Origin: Bacteroidota bacterium
GTDB taxonomy: Bacteria; Bacteroidota; Bacteroidia; UKL13-3
DNA length: 39,944 nucleotides
Assembly: GCA_947459075.1 (NCBI GenBank)
Contig: CANHBJ010000006.1
Span: forward strand, 1-39,944
Direction of reading: 5' to 3'
Shown here: one piece after another, positions 32,556 to 39,714 of the stretch
Numbering within the stretch: the stretch's first letter is position 1
Layout of the letters: every line of letters starts with the position of its first letter
Notes under the pieces: model-generated
Seen by the model: only the letters and a program-made list of their open reading frames with translations
The model's database searches: none
Told to the model about the DNA's origin: nothing
Made by a program: the position numbers and the translations under genes

Positions 32556-33173
32556 ATGACTGAAATTAAAGATAAAATTTTAACAGAAGCTGAGCAGCTA
32601 TTTATGCGTTATGGTTTTAAAAGCATAACCATGGATGACGTTGCGCGAGAACTGGGTGTATCTAAGAAAACACTTTATCAGTTTTTTACAGATAAAAATG
32701 ATTTGGTTAACCAATGCGTGGCGCATTATTTGGCTAACATGAACAAGCTTTGTAGTAATGTGGTTGATAACAAGGAATTGGATGCGATAAGTGTATTGCT
32801 ACAAATTTCTGATCAAATTAATTCCGCCATCAGGTATATTAACCCCAGCAGCATGTTCGATTTAAAAAAGTATTTTAAAAGTGCTTGGGATAAACTGGAG
32901 GCCGACAGGATAAGCTTTATAAGAAAATTGATATATGATAACATTCTGTTTGGAATTAAAAAAGGACTATACCGAAAGGATTTGGATGCAGAGGTAGTGA
33001 GTAGGATTTATATTTATTTGGTTAGTTTTTTAATCAATCCAGATAATTATGATAAAGAGGAAATGGACATTAAGGTGATGCATTTAGAAATTGTAAAATA
33101 CCATTTACGCAGTATTTGTACTGCCCAAGGTATTGAGTTATTAGATGAAAAATTATCAGCTACAAAAAATTAA
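32556..33173 (+). CDS. TetR/AcrR-family transcriptional regulator
   Basis: This 205-residue DNA-binding repressor has its N-terminal helix-turn-helix at about residues 6-52: KDKILTEAEQLFMRYGFKSITMDDVARELGVSKKTLYQFFTDK, with the recognition helix around GVSKKTLYQFF. The C-terminal helical part would bind an inducer and dimerise. It is the first gene of a plus-strand operon, with the TolC-like gene starting 7 bases after its stop, followed by adaptor and pump. This order implies autoregulation together with the pump, and a palindrome lies just upstream of the promoter box. Such regulators usually release DNA when a pump substrate binds; the inducer here is unknown. Confidence 0.92.
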   Translation: MTEIKDKILTEAEQLFMRYGFKSITMDDVARELGVSKKTLYQFFTDKNDLVNQCVAHYLANMNKLCSNVVDNKELDAISVLLQISDQINSAIRYINPSSMFDLKKYFKSAWDKLEADRISFIRKLIYDNILFGIKKGLYRKDLDAEVVSRIYIYLVSFLINPDNYDKEEMDIKVMHLEIVKYHLRSICTAQGIELLDEKLSATKN

Positions 33174-33180
33174 TAAGACA

Positions 33181-34521
33181 ATGAACATATTTAAGACAAT
33201 GAAATACACTAATTTATTTATGCTGTTTTTTTGGACTGCATTTAACACAAGTGCACAACAACAAAGCGAGACTAAAAAGTTTTCTTTACAAGACGCAGTG
33301 GCACACGCTAAAAAGTATAACGGTACACTAAAAAATAGTGCACTTGATGTTATTGCAGCTGAGAAAAAAGTAAAAGAGGTTTTAGCATTGGGTTTACCAA
33401 ATGTGAATGCAAGTGGTGGTTTCAATAATTACATCGTAGTGCCATCTAGTGTAATAGAATTTGGTGGACAGCGTCAAATTATTCGTTTTGGAATTCCATT
33501 TTCGGCTACAGGAAGTATTGCAGCAACCCAGTTACTTTTCGATGGTGGATTTTTAATGGGAGTTAAAGCATCAAAGGAATATGTTCAATTGGCTAAAATT
33601 AACCTTAAACGCACTGAAGCAGAAACAGAAGTTGCAGTTAGTAAAACCTATTACGGAATCTTGCTTGCACAAACCTCATTAACCATGCTAAATGCCAACA
33701 TGGATGCTTTGGGTAAAACTAAGTTCGATTTAGAAAAGTTAGTTCAAAATGGTTTTTTAGATAGGGTTGATTTTGATAAGGTTAACTTACAATACTCTTC
33801 ACTAGAAATACAACGTGATAAATTAATCGATCAACAAAAATCATTGATGATGGTTCTTAAAATTCAATTGGGTTTAGATTTTAACGAAAATATAGAGTTA
33901 ACCGATGATTTGACTAAGATGTATGAATCATCAAAAACAACTGTTTTATCTTCAAAAGTAGATTACAATAACAGGTTAGAGTATCAACTAGTAAATCAAT
34001 CTATTGCTTTAAATACATTAGATAAAAGAAGATACCAATTTGGCTATGCACCAAGTTTAGTTGGTCTGTTTTCAACCCAACAAAACTCCTTCGGTCAAAA
34101 CTTTAACGAATTAGGTAAAGAATGGTTTGGAGGTACATTATGGGGTTTAAATCTTAATATTCCGATTTTTGATGGATTTAAGAAATCGGCTCAAATTCAA
34201 CAAGCATCCATAAGCATTAAAAAAGCCGAGAACGATAAAAAGTTACTGAGTAATTTAATAGAGCAGGAAGTATTTATTGCTAGAACTGCTTTCGACCGTT
34301 CTGCAAAACAATTAGTAGTGCAAAAAAAGAACCTAGATCTTGCTCAAGACATTTATAACAGAACTGAATTAAAGTTTAAAAACGGTTTAACATCAAGTTT
34401 AGAACTAACAAATGCTCAAAAAGATTTAGAAAATGCTCGTGCATCATACTTAAATACCTTGTACGATTATTTTGTTGCACAACTTGATTTACGTAAAGCC
34501 TTAGGAGATTTAAATAAATAA
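33181..34521 (+). CDS. TolC-family outer membrane efflux channel
   Basis: This outer membrane channel subunit of a tripartite efflux system has 446 residues from the start chosen here. It begins with a signal peptide ending NTSAQ. Two repeats of long helices and paired strands follow; family landmarks are FSLQDAVAHAKKYN near the N-terminus, GTLWGLNLNIPIFDG in the middle and LKFKNGLTSSLELTNAQKDLENARASYLNTLYDYFVAQLDLRKALG at the end. An in-frame ATG at 33145 lies inside the TetR gene and would add a hydrophilic tail before the signal peptide, so it is unlikely. The ATG at 33199 is an equally possible start. The adaptor gene follows after 11 bases. Confidence 0.92.
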   Translation: MNIFKTMKYTNLFMLFFWTAFNTSAQQQSETKKFSLQDAVAHAKKYNGTLKNSALDVIAAEKKVKEVLALGLPNVNASGGFNNYIVVPSSVIEFGGQRQIIRFGIPFSATGSIAATQLLFDGGFLMGVKASKEYVQLAKINLKRTEAETEVAVSKTYYGILLAQTSLTMLNANMDALGKTKFDLEKLVQNGFLDRVDFDKVNLQYSSLEIQRDKLIDQQKSLMMVLKIQLGLDFNENIELTDDLTKMYESSKTTVLSSKVDYNNRLEYQLVNQSIALNTLDKRRYQFGYAPSLVGLFSTQQNSFGQNFNELGKEWFGGTLWGLNLNIPIFDGFKKSAQIQQASISIKKAENDKKLLSNLIEQEVFIARTAFDRSAKQLVVQKKNLDLAQDIYNRTELKFKNGLTSSLELTNAQKDLENARASYLNTLYDYFVAQLDLRKALGDLNK

Positions 34522-34532
34522 TAACAACTGAT

Positions 34533-35672
34533 ATGAATAACATAAAAACAATTTTATTAGCAACTGGTGTTGTTGCTTTATTGGCATCTTGCGGTGGTGG
34601 AAATAGTCTTGAATCCAAGAAAGCAGAACTTGAAAAATTAAAAACGCAACAAACAGAAATTGCCGCCCAAATTGCTTCGTTACAAGAAGAAATAGCAACA
34701 ATGGGAGATACTACAAATGCAGAGAATAGCCGTATAAAAATTGTGGCAGTAGCTGCAGTAACCAAACAAGTATTTTTGCATGCAGTTGATGTGCAGGGCC
34801 GTGTTGATGGTGACGAAAATATTACTTATAGTGCCAAGCTACCAGCTGTAGTTAAACGTGTTAATGTAAAAGCTGGCGAAAGAGTTTCTGCTGGTCAAGT
34901 GTTGGTTGAGTTGGATGCAGATGTGGTAAAAGCTCAAATTGAAACATTAAGAAAAGGATTAGAATTGGCTAACACAGTTTACGAAAAACGTAAGGCATTG
35001 TGGGAGCAAAAAGTAGGTAGCGAAATTGAGTTTTTGCAAGCTAAAAATCAAAAAGAAAGTATCGAAAAACAAATTGCTTCTGCAAAAGAAAATTTGGTAA
35101 TGTATTTAATAAAGTCAGAATACAGTGGTACGGTTGATTTAGTGAGTATTAAAGTTGGCCAAGGTGTTGCCCCTGGATTACCTGCAGTTAGTGTGGTTAA
35201 TCCTGCTGCTTTAAAAATTAAAGCTGATTTATCTGAGTCGTATGCAAATATTGTGAAGCAAGGAAACCCAGTATTAATCAATTTCCCTGATATTAATAAA
35301 TCAGTTAAAGCAACTGTAACTTATTCATCAAAATCTATTAATGCATTAACACGTACATTTAATGTAGAAGTAGACTTACCAAATGATAATGATTTACATC
35401 CCAATATGGTTGCAGAATTAAAAATTGTTGACTATGAAAATAAAACCGCATTGGTTGTTCCAATTAATACGATTCAAGAAATTGATGGAGAGAAATTAGT
35501 TTACATATCAACCAAAAACCAGAAGAATGAAACCATTGCCAAAAAAGTTACAATAACAGTGGGTAAAACTTATGGTACAAGTGCCGAAATTTTAAGCGGA
35601 TTAAATGAAGGAGACCAGTTAATTACTACAGGTTTCCAAGATTTAACAGATGGACAAGCAATTAAATTTTAG
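34533..35672 (+). CDS. RND efflux periplasmic adaptor lipoprotein (HlyD/AcrA family)
   Basis: This 379-residue protein bridges the pump and the outer membrane channel. The signal ends in lipobox LASC, so Cys20 is lipid-anchored. An early coiled coil at 24-60 (ESKKAELEKLKTQQTEIAAQI) precedes the usual biotinyl-lipoyl-like domain (AKLPAVVKRVNVKAGERVSAGQVLVELD, about 95-125). An alpha-hairpin, the second lipoyl half (IKSEYSGTVDLVSIKVGQGV), a beta-barrel and a membrane-proximal domain follow. The first coiled coil lies outside the standard hairpin, a pattern seen in some Bacteroidota adaptors. It starts 11 bases after the channel gene and ends 38 bases before the pump gene. Confidence 0.92.
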   Translation: MNNIKTILLATGVVALLASCGGGNSLESKKAELEKLKTQQTEIAAQIASLQEEIATMGDTTNAENSRIKIVAVAAVTKQVFLHAVDVQGRVDGDENITYSAKLPAVVKRVNVKAGERVSAGQVLVELDADVVKAQIETLRKGLELANTVYEKRKALWEQKVGSEIEFLQAKNQKESIEKQIASAKENLVMYLIKSEYSGTVDLVSIKVGQGVAPGLPAVSVVNPAALKIKADLSESYANIVKQGNPVLINFPDINKSVKATVTYSSKSINALTRTFNVEVDLPNDNDLHPNMVAELKIVDYENKTALVVPINTIQEIDGEKLVYISTKNQKNETIAKKVTITVGKTYGTSAEILSGLNEGDQLITTGFQDLTDGQAIKF

Positions 35673-35710: not shown

Positions 35711-38700
35711 ATGCATGATACAAATAAAGAGTTTAAACCATCTAGCTGGAGTATTGATAATAAAACAAGTATTTATATTATTACTATTATCATCACACTT
35801 GCTGGATTGTTTTCCTATAATAAACTTCCTAAGGAACAGTTTCCTGAGGTTAAGTTTCCAAGTATTCTAATCACTACCATCTATCCTGGTACATCACCTA
35901 CGGATATGGAGCAGTTGGTAACCAAACAAATCGAAAAACAGATTAAAACCATTGTTGGTGTTAAGAAAGTTAAAAGTAATTCTGTTCAAGATTTTTCGGT
36001 AATTAATGTTGAATTTAATACCGATCAAAATGTTGATTTGGCTTTGCAGCGGGTAAAAGATGCGGTAGATAAAGCGAAGAATGATTTACCTAACAACTTA
36101 CCTGAAGATCCACAGGTGCGTGATATAGATGTATCACAAATGCCAATTATGCAAGTACACGTTAGTGGTGATTATCCGCTTGATAAATTAAAACGTTATG
36201 CAGAAGATTTACAAGATGAGATAGAAGGCTTAAAGGAAATTACTGAAGCCAAACTTGTTGGTGCACTAGAGCGTGAAATTCAAATTAATGTTGACATGTA
36301 CAAAGCGCAAGTTGCCAATATCACGTTTATGGATATTGAAAATGCGGTTAAATATGAAAACATGACCATTAGTAGCGGTTTGATTGACATGGATGGTTTG
36401 AAGCGGGCTATTAGTGTAAAAGGTGAATATAAAGATCCGAGTAAAATTGGTGATATTGTTGTGCGAGGCTCAACAGGTGCTGTGGTTTATTTAAAAGATA
36501 TTGCAGAGATTAAAGATGCTTACGAAGAAAAAGCAAGCTACGCGCGATTAGAAGGTAAAAACGTAATTAGTTTAAACGTAATTAAGCGTAGTGGTGAAAA
36601 CTTGATTTCTGCATCTGATAAAATTAGAGACATATCAGACAAACTGAGCAAAGAGAAATTTCCGCCCGATTTAAAAGTTACAATCACTGGTGATCAATCA
36701 GAAAAAACACGCGTTACCTTACACGATTTGATTAATACCATCATAATTGGTTTTATATTGGTAACGGTAATTCTAATGTTCTTTATGGGAACAACAAATG
36801 CCATTTTCGTAGCCATGTCGGTTCCATTATCATGTGCGGTTGCCTTTATGGTTTTTCCTGCTATAGGATTTAAGTTAAACTTTATCGTACTATTCTCTTT
36901 CTTATTAGCTTTAGGTATTGTTGTTGATGATGCTATTGTGGTAGTTGAAAATACACACCGTATTTTTGCAAATGGAAAAATGCCTATTAAAAAGGCTGCT
37001 AAACTTGCAGCAGGGGAAGTGTTTTTGCCAGTATTATCTGGAACAATGACAACCCTTGCACCATTTATACCGCTTGCATTTTGGCAAGGTGTAATAGGTA
37101 AATTTATGTTCTATTTACCTATTACTTTAATTGTTACTTTGTTGGCCTCTTTAGTTGTGGCTTATATCATCAATCCAGTTTTTGCAGTTGATTTTATGAA
37201 AACACATGAGGAAGAGCAAAAGAACCGCGAGAATAAAAAAGGTTATAAAATTACTGCGATAGTGTTTGGTGTTATTGTCTTGTTATCATACCTATCAGGT
37301 AATATTGGCTTAGGTAATTTTTCTATCATCATGTTTGGTTTATACTCTTTAAACCGATTTGTATTATGGAAATGGATTCAAAAATTCCAAGAAAATATTT
37401 GGCCTCGTTTCCAGGATTTTTACAAAGCATTTATTGATTGGTGTTTACAAAAACGCAGACCAATTTGGTTGTTGGTAGGTACTTTTGGGTTATTTATTTT
37501 TACATTTTTGTTGGTTGCTATCGTAAAACCTAAAGTCGTATTTTTTCCTAAAGCCGATCCAAACTTTATTTATACTTACATTACTTTACCTACAGGTACA
37601 TCTGCTGCATACACTGATTCTATCACACAAATCATAGAAGAGCGAGTTACTAAGGTTGTGGGTAACGATAATCAAATTGTAGAGTCTATCATATCAAACG
37701 TAGCTGTTGGTGCAAATGATCCTTCGCAGTTCGAATATAATTTTAGTCCTACACCACACTTAGGTAAAGTAACAGTAGCTTTTGTAGAGTTTGGTAAACG
37801 TAATGGAGAATCAACAGCTAAATATTTAGATTTAGTGCGTGAGGCAACCAAAGGTATTCCTGGTGCAGAGGTAATTGTTGACCAAGAAAGTAGTGGACCA
37901 CCAACAGGTAAACCTATTGCTATTGAAATTAAAGGCGATGATATTTACCAGCTAACGCAAGTTAGTGCCGACATAAAACGATATCTTGATTCGCTTGCTT
38001 TTCCGGGGGTAGAGGAGTTAAAATCAGATGTGCAAAGTAATAAGCCTGAATTAATGGTGGTAATTGACAGAGAGCGTGCAAATCGCGAGGGTATTAGCAC
38101 AGCGCAAATTGGAGGCGAATTACGTACGGCAATATTTGGTAAAGAGGTTAGTAAATTTAAAGATGCAAATGATGAGTACCCTATTCAGGTGCGATACAAA
38201 GACAATCAAAGAAATAGCATAGACGCCATCATGAATTTAAAGATTACTTATCGTGATATGAATATGGGCGGTCAAATTCGTCAAATACCATTATCTTCTG
38301 TAGCATCTGTAAAATATGGTAATACTTTTGGTGGTATTAAGCGTCTTGATGACCAACCTATAGTTACACTTTCATCAAATGTATTAAGCGGATATAATGC
38401 AAATGATATTGTTGGTAAGATGGCGAAGGCAATTAAAAGATACGACTTCCCAACAGGCGTTACTGCAAAAATGGGAGGCGAGCAAGAAGAGCAGGCAGAA
38501 ACAGGTGCTTTCTTAGGTGCCGCACTTTTAATTTCATTTGGTTTAATCTTCTTGATTTTGGTAACTCAGTTCAACTCAATATCAAAACCAATAATCATTT
38601 TAAGTGAAATCCTCCTAAGTTTGATTGGTGTGTTTTTAGGCTTTACCATTTTCAATATGGAAATTTCTGTAATGATGACCGGTGTAGGTATTATTGCATT

Positions 38701-39082
38701 GGCTGGTATTGTAGTGCGAAATGGTATTTTATTGGTTGAGTTTACTGAGATTTTGATAAAAGACGGTGTACCTTTAAGAGAGGCTATAATTGATGCTGGT
38801 CGCACACGTATGACTCCAGTTTTACTTACAGCAACTGCAACCATGTTAGGCTTGGTGCCTTTGGCGGTAGGTTTAAACATCGACTTTGCTTCATTAATTT
38901 CAACTGGTAATCCTAAAATATTTTTTGGTGGTGACAGTGTTGCATTTTGGGGTCCATTATCATGGACCATGATATTTGGATTGGCATTTGCAACATTCTT
39001 AACACTAATTTTAGTACCAGTTATGTTGTACTTATCAGAAGGTTTAAAGTTAAAGCTAAAAGCTAAACGAGATATGAAATAA
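35711..39082 (+). CDS. RND-family inner membrane efflux pump (HAE1/AcrB-like)
   Basis: This 1123-residue proton-driven exporter follows the RND layout: TM1 at about 20-36, a large periplasmic loop to about 335, TM2-6, then a second half with the same plan. The proton relay is visible as Asp406-Asp407 in GIVVDDAIVVVEN, and the Lys partner is expected in the second membrane half (near ALAGIVVRNGILLVEF). The sequence fits hydrophobic/multidrug exporters better than heavy-metal CzcA types, which carry a different TM4 motif. The cytoplasmic link between the halves is unusual: residues 513-530 and 534-552 look like two extra membrane segments, flanked by a charged EEEQKNRENKKGYK stretch. It is the last gene of the TetR-TolC-adaptor-pump operon. 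Confidence 0.93.
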   Translation: MHDTNKEFKPSSWSIDNKTSIYIITIIITLAGLFSYNKLPKEQFPEVKFPSILITTIYPGTSPTDMEQLVTKQIEKQIKTIVGVKKVKSNSVQDFSVINVEFNTDQNVDLALQRVKDAVDKAKNDLPNNLPEDPQVRDIDVSQMPIMQVHVSGDYPLDKLKRYAEDLQDEIEGLKEITEAKLVGALEREIQINVDMYKAQVANITFMDIENAVKYENMTISSGLIDMDGLKRAISVKGEYKDPSKIGDIVVRGSTGAVVYLKDIAEIKDAYEEKASYARLEGKNVISLNVIKRSGENLISASDKIRDISDKLSKEKFPPDLKVTITGDQSEKTRVTLHDLINTIIIGFILVTVILMFFMGTTNAIFVAMSVPLSCAVAFMVFPAIGFKLNFIVLFSFLLALGIVVDDAIVVVENTHRIFANGKMPIKKAAKLAAGEVFLPVLSGTMTTLAPFIPLAFWQGVIGKFMFYLPITLIVTLLASLVVAYIINPVFAVDFMKTHEEEQKNRENKKGYKITAIVFGVIVLLSYLSGNIGLGNFSIIMFGLYSLNRFVLWKWIQKFQENIWPRFQDFYKAFIDWCLQKRRPIWLLVGTFGLFIFTFLLVAIVKPKVVFFPKADPNFIYTYITLPTGTSAAYTDSITQIIEERVTKVVGNDNQIVESIISNVAVGANDPSQFEYNFSPTPHLGKVTVAFVEFGKRNGESTAKYLDLVREATKGIPGAEVIVDQESSGPPTGKPIAIEIKGDDIYQLTQVSADIKRYLDSLAFPGVEELKSDVQSNKPELMVVIDRERANREGISTAQIGGELRTAIFGKEVSKFKDANDEYPIQVRYKDNQRNSIDAIMNLKITYRDMNMGGQIRQIPLSSVASVKYGNTFGGIKRLDDQPIVTLSSNVLSGYNANDIVGKMAKAIKRYDFPTGVTAKMGGEQEEQAETGAFLGAALLISFGLIFLILVTQFNSISKPIIILSEILLSLIGVFLGFTIFNMEISVMMTGVGIIALAGIVVRNGILLVEFTEILIKDGVPLREAIIDAGRTRMTPVLLTATATMLGLVPLAVGLNIDFASLISTGNPKIFFGGDSVAFWGPLSWTMIFGLAFATFLTLILVPVMLYLSEGLKLKLKAKRDMK

Positions 39083-39163: not shown

Positions 39164-39194
39164 TTTGAAAGACTGATTATTAATTATATCTTTG
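39164..39194 (+). promoter_or_regulatory. Consensus Bacteroidota promoter in the pump-arsC spacer
   Basis: TTTG (39164-39167), 19 bases, then TATCTTTG (39187-39194). Both boxes match the TTTG / TAnnTTTG consensus exactly, with standard spacing. It is the best promoter in the window. Transcription should begin near 39200-39203. Confidence 0.8.
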
Positions 39195-39200
39195 TTGACC

Positions 39201-39316
39201 GTTTTTATTCATATAAGCGCAAATAAATTGATTTAAAATATTGCATCTTTGAGTAGAGGTGCAATTTGTTTCATAGGCTAGGGTGAGCCCCGGAGAAATC
39301 CGGGGTTTCGCTTTTT
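39201..39316 (+). ncRNA. Candidate small RNA or leader RNA, about 115 bases
   Basis: A perfect promoter lies just upstream and an intrinsic terminator closes the region. Between them is a first hairpin, TTGCATCT (39241-39248) with AGGTGCAA (39257-39264), 8 bp with one G-U pair. The terminator hairpin has a GAAA tetraloop. No open frame of note fits inside. It could be an independent small RNA or an attenuator-like leader of the ArsC-family gene. I recognise no known RNA family. The ends are estimates. Confidence 0.5.
39283..39316 (+). terminator. Intrinsic terminator with GAAA tetraloop
   Basis: CCCCGGA (39288-39294), GAAA (39295-39298), TCCGGGG (39299-39305) form a perfect stem. It extends outward with G-U and bulged pairs from GTGAG to TTTCGC, then TTTTT (39312-39316). 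It closes the candidate small RNA, and may also stop read-through from the pump operon 200 bases upstream. Confidence 0.85.
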
Positions 39317-39372: not shown

Positions 39373-39714
39373 ATGAAAACTGTAATATTTCATAACCCTA
39401 GATGTGGTAAAAGTAGAGAGGCTTTGATTTTGTTAAAAGAACAAAATCAAGATGTTAAAATAGTTGAATACCTTAAAGATATCCCAACAGAAAAAGACAT
39501 CAAAAATTTACTAACCATTCTTAAGCTAAAACCCATACAAATAATAAGGGTGAAGGAAGAAGTTTTTAAGGAATTTAAAAATAAAGAATTATCAGATGCA
39601 CAATGTATTAATTTAATGGTTAAGTATCCAATTCTTATCGAACGCCCAATTGTAGTTAAAGGTAATAAGGCAGTTATTGGTAGGCCGCCTCAACTTATTC
39701 TCGACATTTTATAA
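39373..39714 (+). CDS. arsC: ArsC-family (glutaredoxin-like) arsenate reductase
   Basis: This 113-residue thioredoxin-fold protein would reduce arsenate to arsenite using glutaredoxin. It follows E. coli plasmid ArsC closely in pattern: HNPRCGKSR with active Cys11, Arg59 (IIRVKEE), Arg91 in YPILIERPIVV and Arg104 in IGRPPQLILDIL. These match the three arginines that hold arsenate. It lacks the C-terminal tail of the E. coli protein (141 residues). No ars operon genes are adjacent, so a Spx/YffB-like role stays possible. The ATG at 39373 is chosen because it begins at beta-1. In-frame starts at 39349 (ATG, after a TATATTTC near-box at 39337) and 39283 (GTG, inside the terminator stem) are less likely. 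Confidence 0.82.
   Translation: MKTVIFHNPRCGKSREALILLKEQNQDVKIVEYLKDIPTEKDIKNLLTILKLKPIQIIRVKEEVFKEFKNKELSDAQCINLMVKYPILIERPIVVKGNKAVIGRPPQLILDIL

Follow-up and report, generated by a model that had tools for sequence, protein, structure and literature searches.

Comparative analysis indicates that the 290-nt gap between an RND pump gene (stop at 39082) and an arsC gene (start at 39373) probably encodes a member of a multicopy family of trans-acting small RNAs (sRNAs) of the FopS, LhrC and Qrr kind, which would be tied to stress operons and act independently of Hfq. The gap lies within a stretch of 39,944 nt of Bacteroidota DNA, the whole of which is termed the window. A promoter box, a conserved RNA structure, its conservation in relatives, its synteny and its paralogs were established by sequence comparison. 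To our knowledge, sRNAs of Bacteroidota beyond Bacteroides and Flavobacterium have been little studied.

The only TAnnTTTG sequence inside the 290-nt gap is TATCTTTG, and the TTTG-N19-TATCTTTG promoter described in an earlier note on this DNA is present (Table 1). As the -7 box of Bacteroidota is located at -12 to -5 (PMC9723704), the transcript start was predicted at 39199 instead of at 39201, the position given previously. The box is retained in seven of nine congeners although the flanking bases diverge. A promoter scan based on E. coli rules did not exceed chance and the case for a promoter is therefore built on the Bacteroidota consensus and on the conservation of the box. Among 59 copies of the RNA, 38 have a strict TAnnTTTG box within 120 nt upstream, compared to 8.2 +- 2.5 in Markov controls, a count that includes boxes inside the pump gene, which coding constraints may explain, and related copies that are not independent of each other. 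Of ten dispersed copies checked, nine have their own TAnnTTTG-like box directly before the stem, and the predicted +1 position coincides with the base of the stem or is a few bases off. As far as the sequence can tell, the RNA would thus be transcribed on its own. One congeneric copy (L006, G006:C4:38411-38573) has a box that is missing the last G and also carries an altered loop and tail, as if this copy were decaying.

The predicted transcript extends from 39199 to 39316 (approximately 118 nt) and its fold is better than that of 199 out of 200 shuffled sequences (z = -3.0). The terminator GAGCCCCGGAGAAATCCGGGG(TTT)CGCTTTTT begins at 39285, which is 86 nt past the predicted start, and a scan of a 1.5 kb region identified five terminator-like sites versus 0.8 expected. 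The additional hairpin that had been noticed between promoter and terminator was found as well. The 5' extension at 39199..39239 occurs in the genus of the window and is not part of the dispersed copies. In agreement with the reported lack of an open frame, no conserved reading frame was detected, as every frame is broken by indels between relatives; a coding peptide on either strand was ruled out by these indels.

Table 1. Coordinates of the sRNA locus and its neighbouring genes in the window.
Feature	Position	Strand	Basis or remark
TetR-family regulator, gene 1 of the pump operon	32556..33173	+	Pfam TetR_N
Outer-membrane efflux protein (TolC-like)	33145..34521	+	Pfam OEP
Membrane-fusion protein of the pump	34533..35672	+	Pfam HlyD_D23
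RND permease (ACR_tran), conserved upstream neighbour	35711..39082	+	Pfam PF00873, E = 1.3e-189
TTTG upstream promoter element (-33 region)	39164..39167	+	Sequence; 19-nt spacer to the -7 box
TATCTTTG, Bacteroidota -7 promoter box	39187..39194	+	Predicted start 39199; kept in 7/9 congeners
5' extension with a weak small hairpin	39199..39239	+	Fold; congener alignment
Conserved stem-loop ATTGCATCTTTGAGTAGAGGTGCAAT	39240..39265	+	Covariance model match 39233-39282; independent folds
Unpaired tail UUGUUUCAUAGGCUA, near-invariant	39266..39280	+	Alignments; proposed seed or protein site
Intrinsic terminator of the RNA	39281..39316	+	Terminator scan; changes on both sides of pairs between relatives
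ArsC-family gene, downstream neighbour, outside the system	39373..39714	+	Pfam ArsC

Sequence comparison between copies argues that the stem-loop structure is real. An initial set of 35 sequences was of little use, as the stem is nearly invariant in it and the set was biased by having been collected partly via an exact core pattern. For the members found by a covariance model, 98% of the cells are paired and seven of nine base pairs have changes on both sides, a level of covariation that none of 500 shuffled or slid versions reached; the underlying alignment was fitted to the structure, and free folding of most sequences yields the same hairpins. A slightly larger alignment gave the same result. 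The terminator also covaries, with many base changes on both sides of its pairs between relatives, and both hairpins are conserved; a lack of this conservation would have counted against the proposal in the earlier note. The strongest structural evidence is provided by the dispersed paralogs. Their stems are wholly different (for example AUUAGUG/CACUAAU, CUUGGAAGG/CCUUUCAAG and GCACAUU/GGUGUGC) and unrelated to the usual UUGCA/UGCAA, and they retain two elements, GRGUAG (mostly CUAGGGGUAG) in the loop and UUUCAUAGGYUA in the tail. The tail UUUCAUAGG(C/U)UA is kept in most dispersed copies with differing stems. With the loop and the tail fixed and the stem free in sequence, the comparison itself reveals the bases that are important. 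The apical loop is GAGUAG in the window and GGGGUAG in sister genera. Five loci of genus g5 (L092-L096) have GGGGUAAA in place of the loop GGGGUAGA, and in the same genomes the tail CAUAGGCUA is changed to CAUAUACUA, a possible co-change of both elements.

A DNA search matched the RNA in all nine genomes of the same genus and in 25 of 58 genomes overall. The covariance search in relatives that had been suggested with the first description extended this to 50 of 64 genomes of the family, representing nine of 14 genera, and a second model built from diverse members left the count unchanged at 50/64. In a survey of 295 genomes of the class, only two weak matches were obtained outside the family of the window (L106 and L107), and both look like chance. 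A strict loop-tail pattern was present in seven of 395 class genomes, all of them from the same family, and its reversed control in none. The carriers are uncultured Bacteroidota, several of which come from lakes or ponds according to their isolate names, and include the complete genome UKL13-3 (CP012155), which was obtained by sequencing a cyanobacterial co-culture (PMC5248499). No Rfam family was matched at gathering score by the window and the loci of three relatives; weak matches to rnk_pseudo and a snoRNA stayed far under their cut-offs. The 6S-Flavo RNA model (RF01685) was unmatched in the window and in 0/35 genomes gave a hit, but it was also silent in all 14 controls. The RNA family appears to be undescribed in the sources searched and to be of a kind already known.

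The most widespread copy of the RNA is located at the 3' end of an efflux operon of the TetR-TolC-AcrA-AcrB type. The RND gene is the last gene of this tetR-tolC-mfp-rnd operon and remains the constant upstream neighbour across genera. This arrangement allows for another explanation, in which the hairpin and the terminator form a 3'-UTR element that ends or protects the pump mRNA, or in which the RNA is a fragment cut from it, with an action mainly in cis or dependent on pump transcription. At nearly all loci read, the first copy is found downstream of the RND gene. In some genera it starts only 0-20 nt from the stop codon, which leaves no space for a separate intergenic promoter, and processing out of the pump mRNA is a possible origin of the RNA in these cases. 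In two genera, the 3' end of hsp20 is another conserved site (L161-L163, L196 and L203), where the copies abut the stop codon and are not preceded by a promoter box. In the genus of the window, however, a conserved promoter box separates gene and RNA. The existence of tandem copies, and of dispersed ones that have boxes of their own away from pump genes, likewise argues against a 3'-UTR element, which is considered a possible but unlikely explanation for the family. The tandem arrays consist of two or three copies with unlike upstream regions and near-identical cores. The highest number in any genome is five copies (G063, genus g2), four of which are away from the pump locus, and the predicted length of dispersed copies is 70-80 nt. 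Several copies per genome that share fixed single-stranded elements, together with predicted promoters and terminators of their own, are in line with a multicopy sRNA family. The genome of the window has one detectable copy by the covariance model; a second candidate (L084, contig C7) is placed inside a reading frame and looks like chance. Behind the best-matching pump gene of four genera (g14, g12, g4 and g3), no such RNA is present. In genus g13 (L167 and L168), a degenerate lookalike, GGGTAAA...TTGTTTCTCATATAATAGGTTTAG followed by a terminator, is present past the RND stop codon and may represent a diverged homolog.

From these features we infer transcription, action in trans, pairing, a link to stress and a cofactor. 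Both the start and the end of the sRNA would be set by signals of its own, a promoter and a terminator, and a stem of free sequence would present the fixed apical loop, followed by the fixed unpaired tail and then the terminator. When the envelope or proteins are under stress, the tail and possibly the loop would pair in trans with mRNAs, whose translation would be blocked or altered; Hfq would not be involved, and an RRM protein encoded in these genomes might take part. The position behind the efflux operon and hsp20 makes such a stress role testable. Potential targets were searched on a limited scale. The 12-nt antisense of the tail was not enriched in nine congener genomes and gave fewer matches than the reversed control. 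Pairing of the tail to start codons, as antisense to CCUAUGAAACAA, showed no enrichment either. In a sample of 236 genes, pairing at start regions was not in excess over mid-gene positions; as this sample was drawn from 20 stretches (approximately 343 kb) of the relative G004, the search was below genome-wide scale. The start regions of the pump operon yielded no convincing duplex among 12 tests, and the best one, at the membrane-fusion gene, was equalled by 10 of 200 shuffles, being one of these 12 tests. Given this outcome of a limited search, pairing in trans is put forward as the most likely reading, on inference.

Hfq was detected in none of 21 genomes with a control that worked, and an RRM_1 protein is encoded in 17 of the 21, including the genome of the window; its binding to the RNA is putative. 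The loop and the tail could instead be bound by a protein, for example this RRM_1 protein, and the RNA could serve as a titrating decoy. The two fixed single-stranded elements separated by a stem of free sequence, the several copies per genome, the encoded RRM_1 protein and the lack of target enrichment in the searches above would suit such a role, but a base-pairing seed would equally appear as an invariant tail ahead of a terminator, and the decoy is regarded as rather improbable. The RNA is present in complete form, from promoter box through stem, loop and tail to terminator, on the viral contig IMGVR_UViG_3300042330_000991 (L306, 10777-10807), where the gene of an amidase/endolysin precedes it by 0.6 kb. 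Out of 120 loose and four stricter viral matches, this is the only one with the full architecture. The phage copy suggests that phages may exploit the same RNA network. Together with the dispersed copies it could also be taken to indicate a mobile or repeat-type element, REP-like or spread by phages, with no regulatory role. This explanation is very unlikely, as repeats would share sequence throughout, whereas here the stem pairing persists through sequence turnover, loop and tail are fixed and the position of the box matches the base of the stem.

The downstream neighbour of the RNA differs between genera and comprises arsC, ABC-F, ABC transporter and peptidase genes (named by eye). The idea in the earlier note of a cis-acting leader or riboswitch that senses a ligand and controls read-through into arsC is therefore unsupported and barely credible: even though arsC is often the next gene in the genus of the window and the interval between terminator and arsC has no strong promoter, dispersed copies exist without arsC, the RND gene upstream is the constant neighbour, and the freely varying stem sequence does not resemble a ligand pocket. 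The other proposal made at that time, an independent small RNA, is well supported by the conserved box, the covarying structure, the terminator and the tandem and dispersed copies with boxes of their own.

Sets of sibling sRNAs that share fixed elements are known from LhrC of Listeria, Qrr of Vibrio and OmrA/B, and the likeness of the multicopy sRNA family to these is one of working principle, by description only. The closest functional analogue may be FopS, a family of RNAs in Bacteroides thetaiotaomicron. FopS (GibS) RNAs are multicopy and approximately 65-70 nt long, have house-keeping promoters and a terminal terminator, include one 3'-UTR-derived member and a phage copy, and associate with the RRM protein RbpB (PMC11697453). 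The shared features are the occurrence in Bacteroidota, many paralogs per genome, own promoters (predicted here), a similar length of about 70 nt, a member at a 3' UTR, an end formed by a terminator and a copy in a phage, and the RRM_1 protein encoded here, a putative binder, belongs to the protein class of RbpB. The architecture is different, as FopS consists of an unpaired 5' seed and a terminator only, whereas here a covarying stem that carries the fixed loop precedes the fixed tail, and the terminator follows. The FopS structure is stated to be deposited in Rfam (PMC11697453); the Rfam search gave no match to it here, with an Rfam copy that may lack the FopS entry. Rfp18 and the other Rfp sRNAs of Flavobacterium psychrophilum are independent RNAs with TAnnTTTG promoters and strong folds (PMC9723704). 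They resemble the present RNA in exactly these features of independent Bacteroidota sRNAs and come from a different bacterial family; they are set apart by description and not by sequence, and the covariance model had no credible match in the class sample beyond the family of the window. A bolder version of the sRNA interpretation, offered tentatively and judged unlikely as a whole, is a stress RNA network unique to this lineage, in which siblings carry the fixed loop and tail on interchangeable stems, are fired from efflux and heat-shock operons, have been borrowed by a phage and act via an as yet undescribed protein or rule of pairing.
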